This document shows, piece after piece, positions 2,567 through 11,338 of a DNA stretch of 43,011 bases. Each line of letters opens with the position of its first letter. The stretch's first letter is position 1. Source of the stretch: a virus; the IMG/VR virus record IMGVR_UViG_3300030333_008294, positions 1 through 43,011 of that record, one strand, 5' to 3'. The notes under the pieces were generated by a model that was not told the origin of the DNA, did no database searches, and saw only the letters and a list, made by a program, of their open reading frames with translations. The translations under genes were made by a program, and so were the position numbers.

Positions 2567-4968
2567 CCACATTTTGTCCAGCCGCAATCAGAACAAGTCA
2601 CACAACCATCCTGATAAACAAGACTCTCCCCCTCGCAAGAGGGACAAGACTTTTCGCCTGTACATTTTGTTCCATCTTCAATGTATTTTTTGAGTGTTCT
2701 GGCTAACACCTTTGAAAATGACTGAAAATCACTGTCGGGGTCTCTTTGCAGCTGCTCGACCAAGAAGCTTGGATGGGCGCCGTGACGCAAAGACAGTGAA
2801 ACCATGCGAGTGTGCACCGAATGGTTTGGATTGTCAAAAGCCTTGACAACATTTCGAATCAAACCATCTTCTCCAAATTGGAGATCGTACTCATTTTCTT
2901 TTGTTTTATATGAGCGCTTAACAAGCTCGCCACTGGTGTATTTTTTTGGAATTTCAATGAAGTTTGACAAGCCGCCGATAACCTCATAAGGTCGGCCTTC
3001 CAATAGACCAACTAGAATTGTCCACTTTTCCCCTTTGATTGTTGGGTGGTGGATATCGCACGTCAGTTGCTTTGGACGGCGGGGCGCGTCGTGATATTTC
3101 AGTTCCGGCTCTTTTGTTACCAGTACGCCAGATCTTGAGCCGTCGACATAAACAGTGATACCCTTAAGACCCAGTTTCCAACCCCGTCTATAGAGCCGAC
3201 CGACGATCTCACTGGGTGTGTCCTTTGGTAAATTGATTGTACTGGAAATCGCGTGATCGATATGCTTTTGTATTACAGACTGCACGTCGACACGACGCTC
3301 CCATTCGATTTGATCACTGGTGGTAAAGAAAGCTGGAACGGGAGTGTCAGTATCTGTTTTTGTTGCAGCATACCACTCAGCCACATTGTGGTGCCAAATT
3401 TTATACTCCAACCACTTGTCGCCAAGCTGGTCGACAAAATCAGGAGTCACGCCTTCTTCGTTGTGGTTTAACTTTCTCCGTCGCACATAAGAGTTTCGAA
3501 ACACCGGTTCGATTCCAGAACTAGTCTGAGAGAGAATGGAGACAGATCCAGTGGGAGCATTTGTCAACAGTGAAACATTTCTTCGTCCAAATTGAGCGAT
3601 CTGTTTTTGCAAGCCTTTTGGCAAGCGTTTGATGAACGCATTGTTCTCTTCTTTCCCCCAGTCAAACACGGGAAACGCGCCGCGCTCCTTGGCCAACTCA
3701 ACACTTTCCGAGTAAGCGGAAACCTTCAGCGTTTGGTAAATTAGATTTATAACCTCTTGTGCTTCAGTTGAATCATACGCAAGAGATAGACATGCCATAG
3801 CATCAGCCAATCCGTGGGTGCCTAGGCCAGTTCTACGGCCTTTCTCGCACGCCGTTAGCAGCTTGCCCCACAGTGACTTCTCGCTCTCGGTATCACAGAC
3901 ACCAATGATTCTCTGGAGTTTTTCCATTTCCAACTCAACCAAATCATCTGAGAGGCGAGTTGCCTTTGCAACAACATCCGCGAACAGGTCAAAATCAAAC
4001 TTCGCGTTCTTTTGAAACTTGTTTTTAACAAAGTTCTTCAAATTGACTGATATCAGTCGACAACTATCATACGCACTCAAAGAAAGCTCTGCGCAAGGAT
4101 TAACACATACGGTTTTAAACTCATCATATTCATGTGCCGGCAAGTTATCAGTGATGTTATCCCACATCAGGATCCCAGGCTCGGCCGTTTCTGTTGCCGA
4201 GGATACAATCGTCTCCCAGAGCTTTTTGGCCGATACCATTCTCGTAAAAGAGGGACTTTCAGCATCAACTGGAAACTTAAGCGCAAACTCTTCGTCGTTC
4301 TCCACCGCCTTCATGAAATCATTCGAAATTTTCACTGAGACATTTGCACCTGTAACCTTTGTCAAGTCATGTTTCATTGTTACAAAGCGCTCAATGTCTG
4401 GGTGGCGTACATCCATTGTTATCATCAGGGCGCCGCGGCGGCCGTTTTGGCCAATCATGCGACAAACATAGGAATAGAAATCTGCGAAGCTCCAGGCACC
4501 GGTGCTAGTGCCAGCGGAATTATTAACTGCTGCGTTTTCTGGGCGTAGCTCCGATATATCGATGCCAACGCCGCATCGGCGCTTCATCAGGTTGGCCAGC
4601 TCCTTTCCGGATTCAACAATAGAAGAAACACTGTCTGTTGGCGGGGCAATAACAACGCAGTTACTTAAGCTGATGTTAATGTGATCATTTCCGATTCCGA
4701 CCATTGGGGATCCCTGCGGCACAACATATTTAAACTTGTCTAGGAGCTTGTAAATTTCCTCTTTTTGCAACTTTCTCTTGCCGCCAAACTTTTCCTCAAT
4801 TCGCGCGAACTCAGATGCCAATCGCTCGTGCATCATGTTGGGTGACTTTTCCAAGAGGTTTCCGCTCTTGTCCTTAAGGGCATATTTCGTAACCCACACG
4901 TTTGCTGCTAAATCATCGCCACCGAAATATTCAACAGTCTCTTGCATTGCTTCTTCTTTTCCAAACAT
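2563..4968 (-). CDS. nrdJ: Adenosylcobalamin-dependent (class II) ribonucleotide reductase
   Basis: Reduces ribonucleotides to deoxyribonucleotides for phage DNA synthesis. The 801-aa protein shows the finger-loop active site NPCAE at residues 290-294 (N290, C292 as radical cysteine, E294). Redox cysteines C104 (LSNCVV) and C303 (DSCRLISVNL) sit as in class II enzymes. Residues about 640-760 form a TSCPD-type domain, followed by a cysteine-rich tail (C769, C775, C778, C789, C792, C795, C800), which probably holds the zinc/redox-relay cysteines. These features, and the absence of a small-subunit (nrdB) gene, point to the B12-dependent enzyme; activity would then depend on host cobalamin. The start at ATG 4968 has a GGGGA site lying inside the end of the helicase gene. 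Confidence 0.93.
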   Translation of the reverse strand: MFGKEEAMQETVEYFGGDDLAANVWVTKYALKDKSGNLLEKSPNMMHERLASEFARIEEKFGGKRKLQKEEIYKLLDKFKYVVPQGSPMVGIGNDHINISLSNCVVIAPPTDSVSSIVESGKELANLMKRRCGVGIDISELRPENAAVNNSAGTSTGAWSFADFYSYVCRMIGQNGRRGALMITMDVRHPDIERFVTMKHDLTKVTGANVSVKISNDFMKAVENDEEFALKFPVDAESPSFTRMVSAKKLWETIVSSATETAEPGILMWDNITDNLPAHEYDEFKTVCVNPCAELSLSAYDSCRLISVNLKNFVKNKFQKNAKFDFDLFADVVAKATRLSDDLVELEMEKLQRIIGVCDTESEKSLWGKLLTACEKGRRTGLGTHGLADAMACLSLAYDSTEAQEVINLIYQTLKVSAYSESVELAKERGAFPVFDWGKEENNAFIKRLPKGLQKQIAQFGRRNVSLLTNAPTGSVSILSQTSSGIEPVFRNSYVRRRKLNHNEEGVTPDFVDQLGDKWLEYKIWHHNVAEWYAATKTDTDTPVPAFFTTSDQIEWERRVDVQSVIQKHIDHAISSTINLPKDTPSEIVGRLYRRGWKLGLKGITVYVDGSRSGVLVTKEPELKYHDAPRRPKQLTCDIHHPTIKGEKWTILVGLLEGRPYEVIGGLSNFIEIPKKYTSGELVKRSYKTKENEYDLQFGEDGLIRNVVKAFDNPNHSVHTRMVSLSLRHGAHPSFLVEQLQRDPDSDFQSFSKVLARTLKKYIEDGTKCTGEKSCPSCEGESLVYQDGCVTCSDCGWTKCG

Positions 4969-8731: not shown

Positions 8732-10048
8732 TTAAAATGGATAATAATTCTTCTCTAGAGCCCATTGTATCATGTCTTTGCGCATATTTTCATCTTGCCA
8801 CAGCTTTTGGGCCTTGGGCGAGAGTGAGTGCATGGGGTCGAAATATAAAAATTGCTCACCGGGCTTAACGCTAGGCGCTTCCCACACACTAACGCCCGTA
8901 TTGGGATCGTACCACTCACAAGAATGCACATCCCGCTTGCCGCCGCCACCGGGAGCATCTACCACAAAGAGCGGCGTGTTGAACCCAGCTGTTTTGCCGC
9001 GCACGTGTTTCTCCACATCCATTGCTTTTTTTACAGAGGTTCTCATATCTTCTGTCCCAGCAGTTAAATCGTGCACATAAACATAGTAGGGCTGAACGTT
9101 CATATAACTCAACTTTTTAACGAGAGCTATCATTCTCTCGGGAGTATCATTAACGCCATTCTGGAACACGGTTTGATTTCTGACCTTTATCCCCTTTGAG
9201 AACAGAAGCTTCATTGCATCGTGGGTTATTTTTGTTATCTCTCCAGCATGATTAAAGTGCGTGTGAATACACAACTCTTTGTACTGTTTTCTTGCCCTGT
9301 CTGTCCAATAGGCAACCGCCTCGATCCAACGTTCGTCAGTCAAGACCTTCATAGGCAATACGGACAAGCCTTTTGTTGCAAGGCGAAATCTTCTAATGTG
9401 GTCTATTTTTAAAAGCTCGTTGCAGATTTCATTTATCTGAGAGACTTTCAAGCGGAAAGCGTCGCCGCCTGATATCACCACGTCTTGTATCTTTTTGTTC
9501 TTTCGCAGGTAGTCGAACATGTCGGCCCACCTCTCCTTCGACGCCTTAATGGAGACCTTTTCCGCTGTCGGCGTGCTGGTGCCGACTGCATATGCGCGAG
9601 TGCAAAACCGACAATATACCGGGCACGTGTCCAGCGCAAGAAACAGAACCTTATCCTCGTAGCGATGAGTCAGCCCCTTAACCGGGGAGTCCTCTTGCTC
9701 ATTTAGGCTATCAAACCGCAACATTGGATGGTCTGGTTGCAATTGCGAACCCAGGGTTAAAAACTGCTTTCTTATGGGGCAATTAAGCGGATCATTCCAG
9801 TCCATCAAAGAGAGCAAATAGGGTGTTATTCGAGTGGCCATAGGAGCCTTAAGGAACCCCTCTCTGGCGTCTTCTAGAAAATCAGGGTCCACAAGATCCT
9901 GAATTGTTTTTAGAAGCTTCTTGTGGCTTGTAATCGCGTTTTTTTCCTGCCAAAGATGGTTAATAAATGTTCTATAATCAACATCTTTCCACGCTGGAAT
10001 TGCTTTCCAGAACATATCACTTCTGAATTCTTCTGCTTTGTGTTTCAT
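8732..10048 (-). CDS. kamA: Lysine 2,3-aminomutase (radical SAM, PLP)
   Basis: Converts L-lysine to beta-lysine using S-adenosylmethionine, a 4Fe-4S cluster and PLP. The cluster motif is C142-x3-C146-x2-C149, followed by R151, the residue that binds the substrate carboxylate in the clostridial enzyme. The PLP lysine is K371 in VVDAPGGGGK. D327 (VHDLT) and D364 (FVVD) align with clostridial D293 and D330, which hold the lysine side-chain amine, so lysine is the expected substrate. Length 438 aa includes the C-terminal assembly region missing from the shorter EF-P enzyme EpmB. It overlaps the thioesterase gene by ATGA. No beta-lysine acetyltransferase is nearby. Possible roles are osmolyte synthesis or modification of lysine-containing targets. 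Rare cargo for a phage. Confidence 0.93.
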   Translation of the reverse strand: MKHKAEEFRSDMFWKAIPAWKDVDYRTFINHLWQEKNAITSHKKLLKTIQDLVDPDFLEDAREGFLKAPMATRITPYLLSLMDWNDPLNCPIRKQFLTLGSQLQPDHPMLRFDSLNEQEDSPVKGLTHRYEDKVLFLALDTCPVYCRFCTRAYAVGTSTPTAEKVSIKASKERWADMFDYLRKNKKIQDVVISGGDAFRLKVSQINEICNELLKIDHIRRFRLATKGLSVLPMKVLTDERWIEAVAYWTDRARKQYKELCIHTHFNHAGEITKITHDAMKLLFSKGIKVRNQTVFQNGVNDTPERMIALVKKLSYMNVQPYYVYVHDLTAGTEDMRTSVKKAMDVEKHVRGKTAGFNTPLFVVDAPGGGGKRDVHSCEWYDPNTGVSVWEAPSVKPGEQFLYFDPMHSLSPKAQKLWQDENMRKDMIQWALEKNYYPF

Positions 10049-10443
10049 TTTTGCTCCAACTGGCCGTATTTGTCTTTTACTTTTTTGCTCAAAGGCATCG
10101 ACTCGCCCTCTTGGTCGATCTGAACAAAGACCATTTTAGTTTGGCATACAATCTTTTGCTTCCCTGTGAATTGATTGTGACTGCGCGCCTCAAGGCTTAT
10201 AGTTGTGCTCGTGTTGCCCACTTTTAACACCTCGCCGTAAATCTTAACAATTCTTCCCTCTTTGACCGGTTTATCAAAGGTAACTTCGGACATGCTCCTT
10301 GTAACCATTCTTGTAGAATCCGCCACTTGGCATGCATATGCCAGAGCGGCTTCGTCCAACCACGACAACATGATTCCCCCAAAGAGGCTACCGTGCACCC
10401 CAATGTCTCTTGTCATGCAAACCTTGGTTGTTATTAGCTCCAC
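10045..10443 (-). CDS. Hotdog-fold acyl-CoA thioesterase, 132 aa
   Basis: Hydrolyses acyl-CoA thioesters. The pattern RDIGVHGSLFGGIMLSWLDEAA matches the YciA/acyl-CoA-hydrolase signature (N/H-G..FGG...+..D), with D near residue 32 as catalytic carboxylate. It is followed by SMSEVTFDKPVKEG, IYGEVLKVGNTSTTISLE and a V..VFV final strand. I place the start at GTG 10443, where family similarity begins. The upstream 17 codons of the open frame are arginine-rich and coincide with a small membrane ORF in another frame. It overlaps kamA by four bases and probably shares its transcript. Phage use could be lipid or acyl-group remodelling; the substrate cannot be told. Quoted motif is split here as read: RDIGVHG, then SLFGG. 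Confidence 0.85.
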   Translation of the reverse strand: MELITTKVCMTRDIGVHGSLFGGIMLSWLDEAALAYACQVADSTRMVTRSMSEVTFDKPVKEGRIVKIYGEVLKVGNTSTTISLEARSHNQFTGKQKIVCQTKMVFVQIDQEGESMPLSKKVKDKYGQLEQK

Positions 10444-10529
10444 AAAACCCACCCAGCGATGGCGCCTAGGGCGGCGCCGGCAGCAAAGAGCCAAAAAATT
10501 TGTTTGATATCAACATTGGTCTTTTTCAA
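10434..10529 (-). CDS. Putative 31-aa single-span membrane peptide
   Basis: TTG start at 10529 with GGAGG ten bases upstream; TAA at 10434-10436, overlapping the thioesterase start by 10 bases. The peptide is a short basic head (MKKTNVDIKQ), then one hydrophobic span with small-residue spacing (WLFAAGAALGAIAGWVLW). It is the first frame after a good promoter. Short length makes this tentative. Confidence 0.4.
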   Translation of the reverse strand: MKKTNVDIKQIFWLFAAGAALGAIAGWVLWS

Positions 10530-10556
10530 TTTTCAAAATCCTCCATGATTCAGAAT

Positions 10557-10577
10557 ATTATAACACACTCTTGTGTG
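10557..10577 (-). promoter_or_regulatory. Extended -10 promoter with adjacent inverted repeat
   Basis: Minus-strand TGTTATAAT gives a perfect TATAAT (10557-10562) with an upstream TG extended element; no good -35 is seen. A perfect inverted repeat CACAC-tctt-GTGTG (10564-10577) abuts and overlaps the extended element, a possible operator. It would drive the membrane peptide, thioesterase, kamA, lipoprotein, barrel and tRNA series. Confidence 0.5.
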
Positions 10578-10596
10578 GAATATTAAAACTTTTTAG

Positions 10597-10788
10597 AACC
10601 CGGGGGCAGAATTGAACTGCCGACCCCCGCTCTGTCATAGATCCACCTTGCATGGGTGTTTCCGCCTCAGACCCAATCGCCACTGATTACGGTGGGGGCG
10701 AATTCCCCGTGCGCTTGCAACGCGATTCCGTGTGTGGACCTGCGGTTTCCTACTAACGGTGCTCTTACCAACCTTGAGCTACCCGGGT
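10597..10788 (-). tRNA. Interrupted tRNA, probably tRNA-Val
   Basis: Minus-strand tRNA split in its anticodon loop. 5' part: acceptor ACCCGGG, TA, D arm GCTC/GAGC with loop AAGGTTGGTAA, A26, anticodon-stem strand CCGTT (10755-10759). 3' part: stem strand AGCGG (10627-10631), variable GGGTC, T arm GGCAG TTCAATT CTGCC, acceptor CCCGGGT and discriminator T. The stem pairs C-G, C-G, G-C, U-G, U-A. Between the stem strands lie 123 bases instead of seven. Removing 116 gives loop ATGACAG (anticodon GAC) or AGTACAG (anticodon TAC), both valine. The first restores U33; the second fits a 5' exon ending in U and an intron ending in G. A consensus promoter lies just upstream. U73 is unusual for valine tRNA, so identity is uncertain. 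Confidence 0.6.
10636..10751 (-). other. 116-nt insertion in tRNA anticodon loop, candidate intron
   Basis: The insertion contains its own hairpins, for example GCGTT-gca-AGCGC, GGGG-aattcg-CCCC and GGGT...ACCC, and TAG near its 5' end can pair with CTA near its 3' end. It is about half the size of known bacterial tRNA group I introns and I see no clear P7/R-S core. It has no ORF. Boundaries could move by a few bases. Confidence 0.4.
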
Positions 10789-10810
10789 ACACTTTAAAAC
10801 AACTGGCATC

Positions 10811-10839
10811 ATTATAACAACTACCTCAAACAATGTCAA
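10811..10839 (-). promoter_or_regulatory. Consensus sigma-70 promoter of the interrupted tRNA
   Basis: Perfect TTGACA (10834-10839), 17-base spacer, perfect TATAAT (10811-10816). Predicted start near 10804, about 16 bases before the tRNA 5' end. The -35 box overlaps the end of the upstream gene. Confidence 0.85.
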
Positions 10840-11338
10840 AGGTTTTTTTACGATATTTCAAAAACCAAGCTGGTATTTTGTTTTTTGGGTAGCGCATGCG
10901 CGGTTTGGACGCGTAAAACTTACGATACGATTCCACAATGTCCGCTGAGCGGAATTCGGGTGGCATGGCCAATGGCAATTCTGTCGGAACCTGCGAAGGG
11001 AACAACGATGCGTCATATAGGCTAACACATTTCTCCAACACAGCAGCGCACTTATGCACTTTGCCGAAGCGATCCGTATACTCTTTCAACATTGCTTCGG
11101 TGTGCTTTATCAGAGATTTAAAATTTGCTGACGATTCTTGCACCCACTTGGTAGAAGGGTGGTTTTTATGTGTTGAGCGATATGGGGCAATTTTAAAACC
11201 CGCTTGCTCATTTAACACTGTCGACAACATTTGACAAGACTCTAAGATCATCTTGACAACGCGATAATTATCTTGAGATTGGGCAGATTTAACCCAATCG
11301 ACCTGACCGTCATGGCCCTCTATTGCAAAAATATTCAT
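10826..11338 (-). CDS. Conserved phage protein of unknown function, 170 aa
   Basis: The sequence opens MNIFAIEGHDGQVDWVKSAQ and continues RVVKMILESCQMLSTVL, then HPSTKWVQESSANFKSLI, YTDRFGKVHKC and LPLAMPPEFRS...SYRKFYASK. This string of motifs (MNIF-D, HVVKM.LE..Q.LST, HPc..W...S..N..WL, Y..RFGK.H, MP.e......yR.yY) recurs in a family I remember from many marine and enteric phages, annotated only as hypothetical. In those relatives a histidine usually precedes VVKM; here it is Arg. A cytosolic helical enzyme or nucleic-acid protein is possible. The ATG at 11338 has no ribosome binding site and lies at the predicted transcription start. Confidence 0.7.
   Translation of the reverse strand: MNIFAIEGHDGQVDWVKSAQSQDNYRVVKMILESCQMLSTVLNEQAGFKIAPYRSTHKNHPSTKWVQESSANFKSLIKHTEAMLKEYTDRFGKVHKCAAVLEKCVSLYDASLFPSQVPTELPLAMPPEFRSADIVESYRKFYASKPRMRYPKNKIPAWFLKYRKKTFDIV

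Follow-up and report, generated by a model that had tools for sequence, protein, structure and literature searches.

The one well-known bacterial RNA that joins a tRNA-like body to a different folded domain replacing the anticodon arm is, to our knowledge, tmRNA (SsrA). The anticodon loop of tRNA genes can also house group I introns, the smallest of which known are about 200 nt long, as well as the bulge-helix-bulge introns of archaea and eukaryotes. A 2014 review placed all phage introns then known in protein genes, despite the many tRNA genes of phages (PMC3984707), and the structured phage RNAs GOLLD and ROOL, whose function is unknown, lie near tRNA clusters and form RNA-only multimers (PMC12286853). 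The phage RNA described here resembles each of these in part. Like tmRNA, it has tRNA-like acceptor and T arms and another folded domain where the anticodon arm would be; unlike tmRNA, it is half the size, keeps a full D stem, lacks a conserved tag reading frame and has no Rfam tmRNA match. With group I introns of tRNA anticodon loops it shares the position in the gene and a structured insert, but the insert is about half as long as the smallest known examples, has no Rfam match and offers no consistent splice points. As in archaeal and eukaryotic tRNA introns, the insert sits in the anticodon loop, whereas no bulge-helix-bulge was seen, the insert is conserved in sequence, and the setting is a phage with a bacterial-type promoter and tRNAs. 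Like GOLLD and ROOL, it is a structured phage RNA near tRNA clusters, but it is far smaller, matches neither in Rfam and contains the tRNA fold within the RNA itself. Neither ARAGORN nor Rfam at gathering thresholds called the gene. Rfam searches had been proposed with the initial annotation, which had seen no clear group I core; relaxing them to E values up to 10 gave only chance-level matches, none of them to introns, group I, tmRNA, GOLLD or ROOL; the Rfam searches otherwise returned tRNAs. Likeness to 5S rRNA, RNase P or an HDV-like ribozyme, checked by eye, was unconvincing. Fitting no RNA family so far defined, it looks like a new non-coding RNA and not like a tRNA with a removable intron.

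The gene lies in the window, by which we mean the whole stretch of DNA analysed, a 43-kb IMG/VR fragment (43,011 nt) whose major head protein, tail sheath, UvsX-like and DnaB-like helicase families all identify the source, by protein match, as a distant T4-like phage. Read on the minus strand from 10789 to 10597, the sequence gives a full cloverleaf, in which the tRNA-like body runs from A1 (10788) to the discriminator base (10597) and 123 nt replace the anticodon loop. The initial annotation had recognized such an interrupted tRNA gene, and both the minus-strand sequence and compensatory changes in six further lineages bear it out. As it had reported, the acceptor (ACCCGGG/CCCGGGT), D (GCTC/GAGC) and T (GGCAG/CTGCC) stems are all perfect in the window, and the 123 nt are closed by CCGTT/AGCGG, in which one pair is G.U. 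The T loop reads TTCAATT, the elbow bases G18G19 of the D loop and C56 of the T loop are present, and CCA is not encoded at the 3' end. No ORF of at least 60 aa runs through the gene, in agreement with the earlier remark that the insert has no ORF, and a scan of 10400-11000 returned the promoter that had been assigned to the gene, some 22 nt before the 5' end of the tRNA-like body. A second promoter-like site (TTAATA-18-TATAAT; 10557-10586, minus strand) directly follows the gene. The window also encodes a radical SAM protein (8732-10048, minus strand) with a weak lysine-2,3-aminomutase C-terminal match (PF12544), followed by a 4HBT thioesterase gene (10045-10494); both are unusual phage metabolic genes.

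Features of the tRNA-like gene and its promoter, in window coordinates.
Feature	Position	Strand	Remarks
Sigma-70-type promoter TTGACA-17-TATAAT	10811..10839	minus	12/12 consensus match
5' half of tRNA-like body	10755..10789	minus	position -1, acceptor 5' strand (10788-10782), D arm, anticodon-stem 5' strand CCGTT (10759-10755); read from sequence; acceptor pairs covary across 7 lineages
Conserved 119-nt insert AGTAGGAA...GTGGATCTATG	10636..10754	minus	75-97% identity between lineages
Pa 5' strand AGGTC	10737..10741	minus	pairs with GATCT 10643-10639; paired in 7/7; one G.U to A-U change
Pb (CGG 10730-10728 / CCG 10692-10690) enclosing Pc (10709-10705 / 10697-10693)	10690..10730	minus	provisional
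S1 hairpin TCAG (10686-10683) / CTGA (10670-10667)	10667..10686	minus	one compensatory pair (C-G/U-A)
P3 hairpin CACC/GGTG, loop CATGCAA (consensus YAUGCAR)	10644..10658	minus	3/4 pairs altered on both sides
Variable 3' junction ACAG	10632..10635	minus	other lineages: TACGA, GACA, GACGA, TTACG, TACGA
3' half of tRNA-like body	10597..10631	minus	anticodon-stem 3' strand AGCGG (10631-10627), variable region, T arm, acceptor 3' strand, discriminator

Comparison of the locus among related phages revealed the same insert and cloverleaf in six further lineages, making seven with the window (W), all from uncultured T4-like phages. The neighbouring gene (10826-11338) led to records L002-L004, counted as one lineage, where a diverged tRNA body carrying the insert lies immediately downstream of that gene; L093, L096, L104, L120 and L121 were added through pattern scans and a covariance model. 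Major head proteins are 68% (L003), 65% (L104) and 51% (L120) identical to that of the window. The tRNA-like gene comes after tRNA-Leu in L104, between tRNA-Leu and tRNA-Met in L002, and after tRNA-Arg in L120. Searches with blastn found no homologue in cultured phages or plasmids, and one exact pattern, which fits the window's subgroup only, gave a single match (L095) in bacterial and archaeal genomes that we judged to be due to chance; hosts may still carry the RNA. Matches in L085-L092, L094, L097 and L113 were likewise set aside as chance k-mers within other sequence. Two of the lineages share a second unannotated block (L120:4425-4221, minus strand; L096:1642-1774, plus strand) with 85% identity over 134 nt, just downstream of the tRNA-like gene in L120 and upstream of it in L096; this block has no Rfam match, was not found in the window record and is probably another phage non-coding RNA. 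Adjoining the tRNA cluster of L120 is a gene (3416-4033, minus strand) for a TilS-like PP-loop ATPase domain protein (PF01171), for which a phage tRNA-Ile carrying CAU is a possible substrate.

Alignment of the seven lineages allowed 34 pairs to be tested, drawn from the acceptor, D, closing, Pa, S1, P3 and T helices; 98.3% are paired and 12 pairs are altered on both sides, a level of covariation reached by none of 500 shuffles, while slid partners give at most four. The cloverleaf arms are kept through compensation, the acceptor and T stems each having three pairs altered on both sides. The closing anticodon stem changes from CCGU/GCGG to CACC/GGUG in L120, and P3 occurs as CACC/GGUG, CACU/AGUG or CGUU/AACG around the conserved loop. 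Compensatory changes in the closing stem and acceptor arm, which the initial annotation had proposed to look for, are hence found in the relatives. By manual alignment Pc has compensatory changes at two pairs, and S1 has single mismatches in L120 and L121. The folding energy of the single sequence is no better than that of shuffles (z -0.23), so that the evidence for structure is comparative rather than thermodynamic. The interior fold, which is the minimum-energy fold of no single sequence, is provisional, since rival pairings compete for the Pb/Pc region and single sequences fold differently by energy alone. A candidate pseudoknot of UGGGU with ACCCA looked convincing in the first lineages and was rejected on L121, where it fails and P3 (CGTT/AACG) fits better. 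The sequence comparisons establish that the gene exists and is conserved in seven lineages, that its arms are tRNA-like and that a stem closes the insert, which contains the P3 hairpin; they also indicate clear structural selection on the closing stem, the arms and the insert.

The insert and the tRNA body have been conserved in different ways. Among the first five lineages the insert is 85-97% identical, versus 71-92% for the tRNA body, and in L120 it is still 78% identical despite the divergence of the head protein; its length is 109 nt in the short lineages. The alignment indicates that conservation of the tRNA body is chiefly one of shape, and that of the insert one of sequence. Contacts that define a tRNA have been lost in some lineages while the insert has been kept: L121 has lost both the D-loop GG and the T-loop C56 (T loop TTAAAGT), which are the two partners of the G19-C56 elbow, and G18 is absent from L096. 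Four lineages carry U as the discriminator and the other three A, so that no single charging identity is specified. Judged as functional elongator tRNAs, the genes have compensated arms, but neither a seven-nucleotide loop with U33 nor the G18G19/C56 elbow is present in every lineage.

The covariation, the greater conservation of the insert than of the body, the lost tRNA contacts and the lack of common splice points make it probable that the locus encodes a non-coding RNA, about 193 nt long and not spliced, in which a cloverleaf like that of a tRNA carries a conserved domain of several helices (about 110-120 nt) in place of its anticodon loop. The variable discriminator, the dedicated promoter, the lack of an ORF and the tRNA neighbours in L002, L104 and L120 point the same way. 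Against it stand the UAC triplet obtainable in five of seven lineages, which could point to a decoding tRNA, the acceptable loop that excision leaves in W and L093, the small number of lineages, and an interior fold that energy alone does not favour in any single sequence. The initial annotation had offered three readings; the comparative evidence favours its regulatory RNA that mimics a tRNA over a minimal self-splicing element, and contradicts a relic.

Removal of the insert as a tiny intron of a novel type, whether self-splicing or aided by a protein, from what would probably be a phage tRNA-Val is an unlikely alternative, and still more doubtful is its specific form, a new self-excising ribozyme roughly half as large as the smallest group I introns. 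The anticodon loop is the classic site of tRNA introns, and the closing exon stem is both conserved and covarying. Moreover, when all excisions leaving a seven-nucleotide loop were enumerated in every lineage, removal of 116 nt from the window gave a GAC or TAC anticodon at the junctions previously named, as had been claimed, and keeping 3 nt on the 5' side gave a valine-type UAC triplet in five of the seven lineages, though with G at position 33. The same enumeration, however, found no pair of junctions, consistent with the alignment, that would yield a normal seven-nucleotide loop with U33 in all seven. U33 together with a purine at 37 is obtainable only in the window and L093 (loop ATGACAG); L096 allows U33 but then has C37, and no excision produces U33 in L002, L104, L120 or L121. 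The group I junction rule, by which the 5' exon ends in U and the intron in G, can be satisfied in the window and fails at the homologous junctions elsewhere. Also at odds with an intron are the lost elbow of L121, the varying discriminator and 11 extra nt at the 5' junction of L104, as well as the failure to find an Rfam intron match, a bulge-helix-bulge at the exon-intron junctions (inspected by eye), or an intron-less allele among 45 related records, many of them fragments, with the pattern used. A parasitic intron in a working tRNA is expected to drift while the tRNA is well kept; here the insert is more conserved than the exons, the reverse of this expectation, which disfavours splicing. 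The 11 extra nt of L104 (CGTTTATATAA; 1661-1651, minus strand) resemble the anticodon loop of a phage tRNA-Ile(TAT) (GTTCTTATAAAG versus GTTTATATAAAG).

The unspliced RNA might serve specifically as a decoy for, or a sensor of, host defences that cut tRNAs, occupying an anticodon nuclease or retron effector while presenting no cleavable anticodon. This special case of the favoured explanation draws on reports that phage tRNAs counter tRNA-targeting defences (PMC10264068, PMC11555353) and fits an RNA that has retained the tRNA shape and dispensed with the anticodon; we regard it as improbable, given that 110 nt of sequence-conserved insert would be superfluous in a decoy and that elbow loss in L121 weakens the mimicry. 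Slighter still are the chances of a shrunken tmRNA that has kept its tRNA-like domain and pseudoknots and lost its message. The overall plan is the same, and related phages do encode tmRNAs with their own tag peptides (L016:768-1104 and L037:9685-10106), while on visual inspection L126:1-240 resembles the 3' portion of a further tmRNA. The insert even has a 14-nt string, GGAATTAGTGGCGA, in common with a relative's tmRNA-like stretch, but the string is missing from two other phage tmRNAs and is probably a chance likeness. The full D stem is unlike tmRNA, the model match is at chance level (E 0.02-0.3), and Rfam gave no tmRNA match up to E 10. An ATG does follow an AAGGTGG string at the end of the insert, but lies 4 or 5 nt from the stem depending on the lineage, such that its frame is not conserved. 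Decay of a tRNA into which a sequence had inserted at random would account for the eroded translational features of some lineages, but is refuted by compensatory changes in all major stems, alongside an insert conserved at 75-97% and a consensus promoter, and has a negligible likelihood.

If the locus does encode an unspliced RNA, its occurrence in tRNA clusters and its tRNA-like arms suggest that its ends would be matured by the host tRNA machinery, through RNase P, 3' processing and CCA addition. The tRNA shape would then protect and localize the RNA, and the insert would be the working part, binding one specific target through the invariant single-stranded segments AGUAGGAARCC and AGUGGCGAU and the YAUGCAR loop. 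By analogy with GOLLD and ROOL multimers, the self-complementary UGCA within that loop might also permit self-pairing of the RNA. The target is most likely linked to translation or to tRNA-directed host defence; its identity is a guess, prompted on the defence side by the reports of phage tRNAs that counter such systems.

Engineers already use tRNA scaffolds to carry RNA domains. A second design of tRNA body plus domain, unrelated to tmRNA and kept by selection in diverse phages, would mean that the tRNA shape has been reused in nature as a carrier of RNA domains. Such a design would also offer a fresh and concrete lead on how large phages may use RNA during infection. Should the insert instead be spliced out, it would be a new and minimal kind of tRNA intron.
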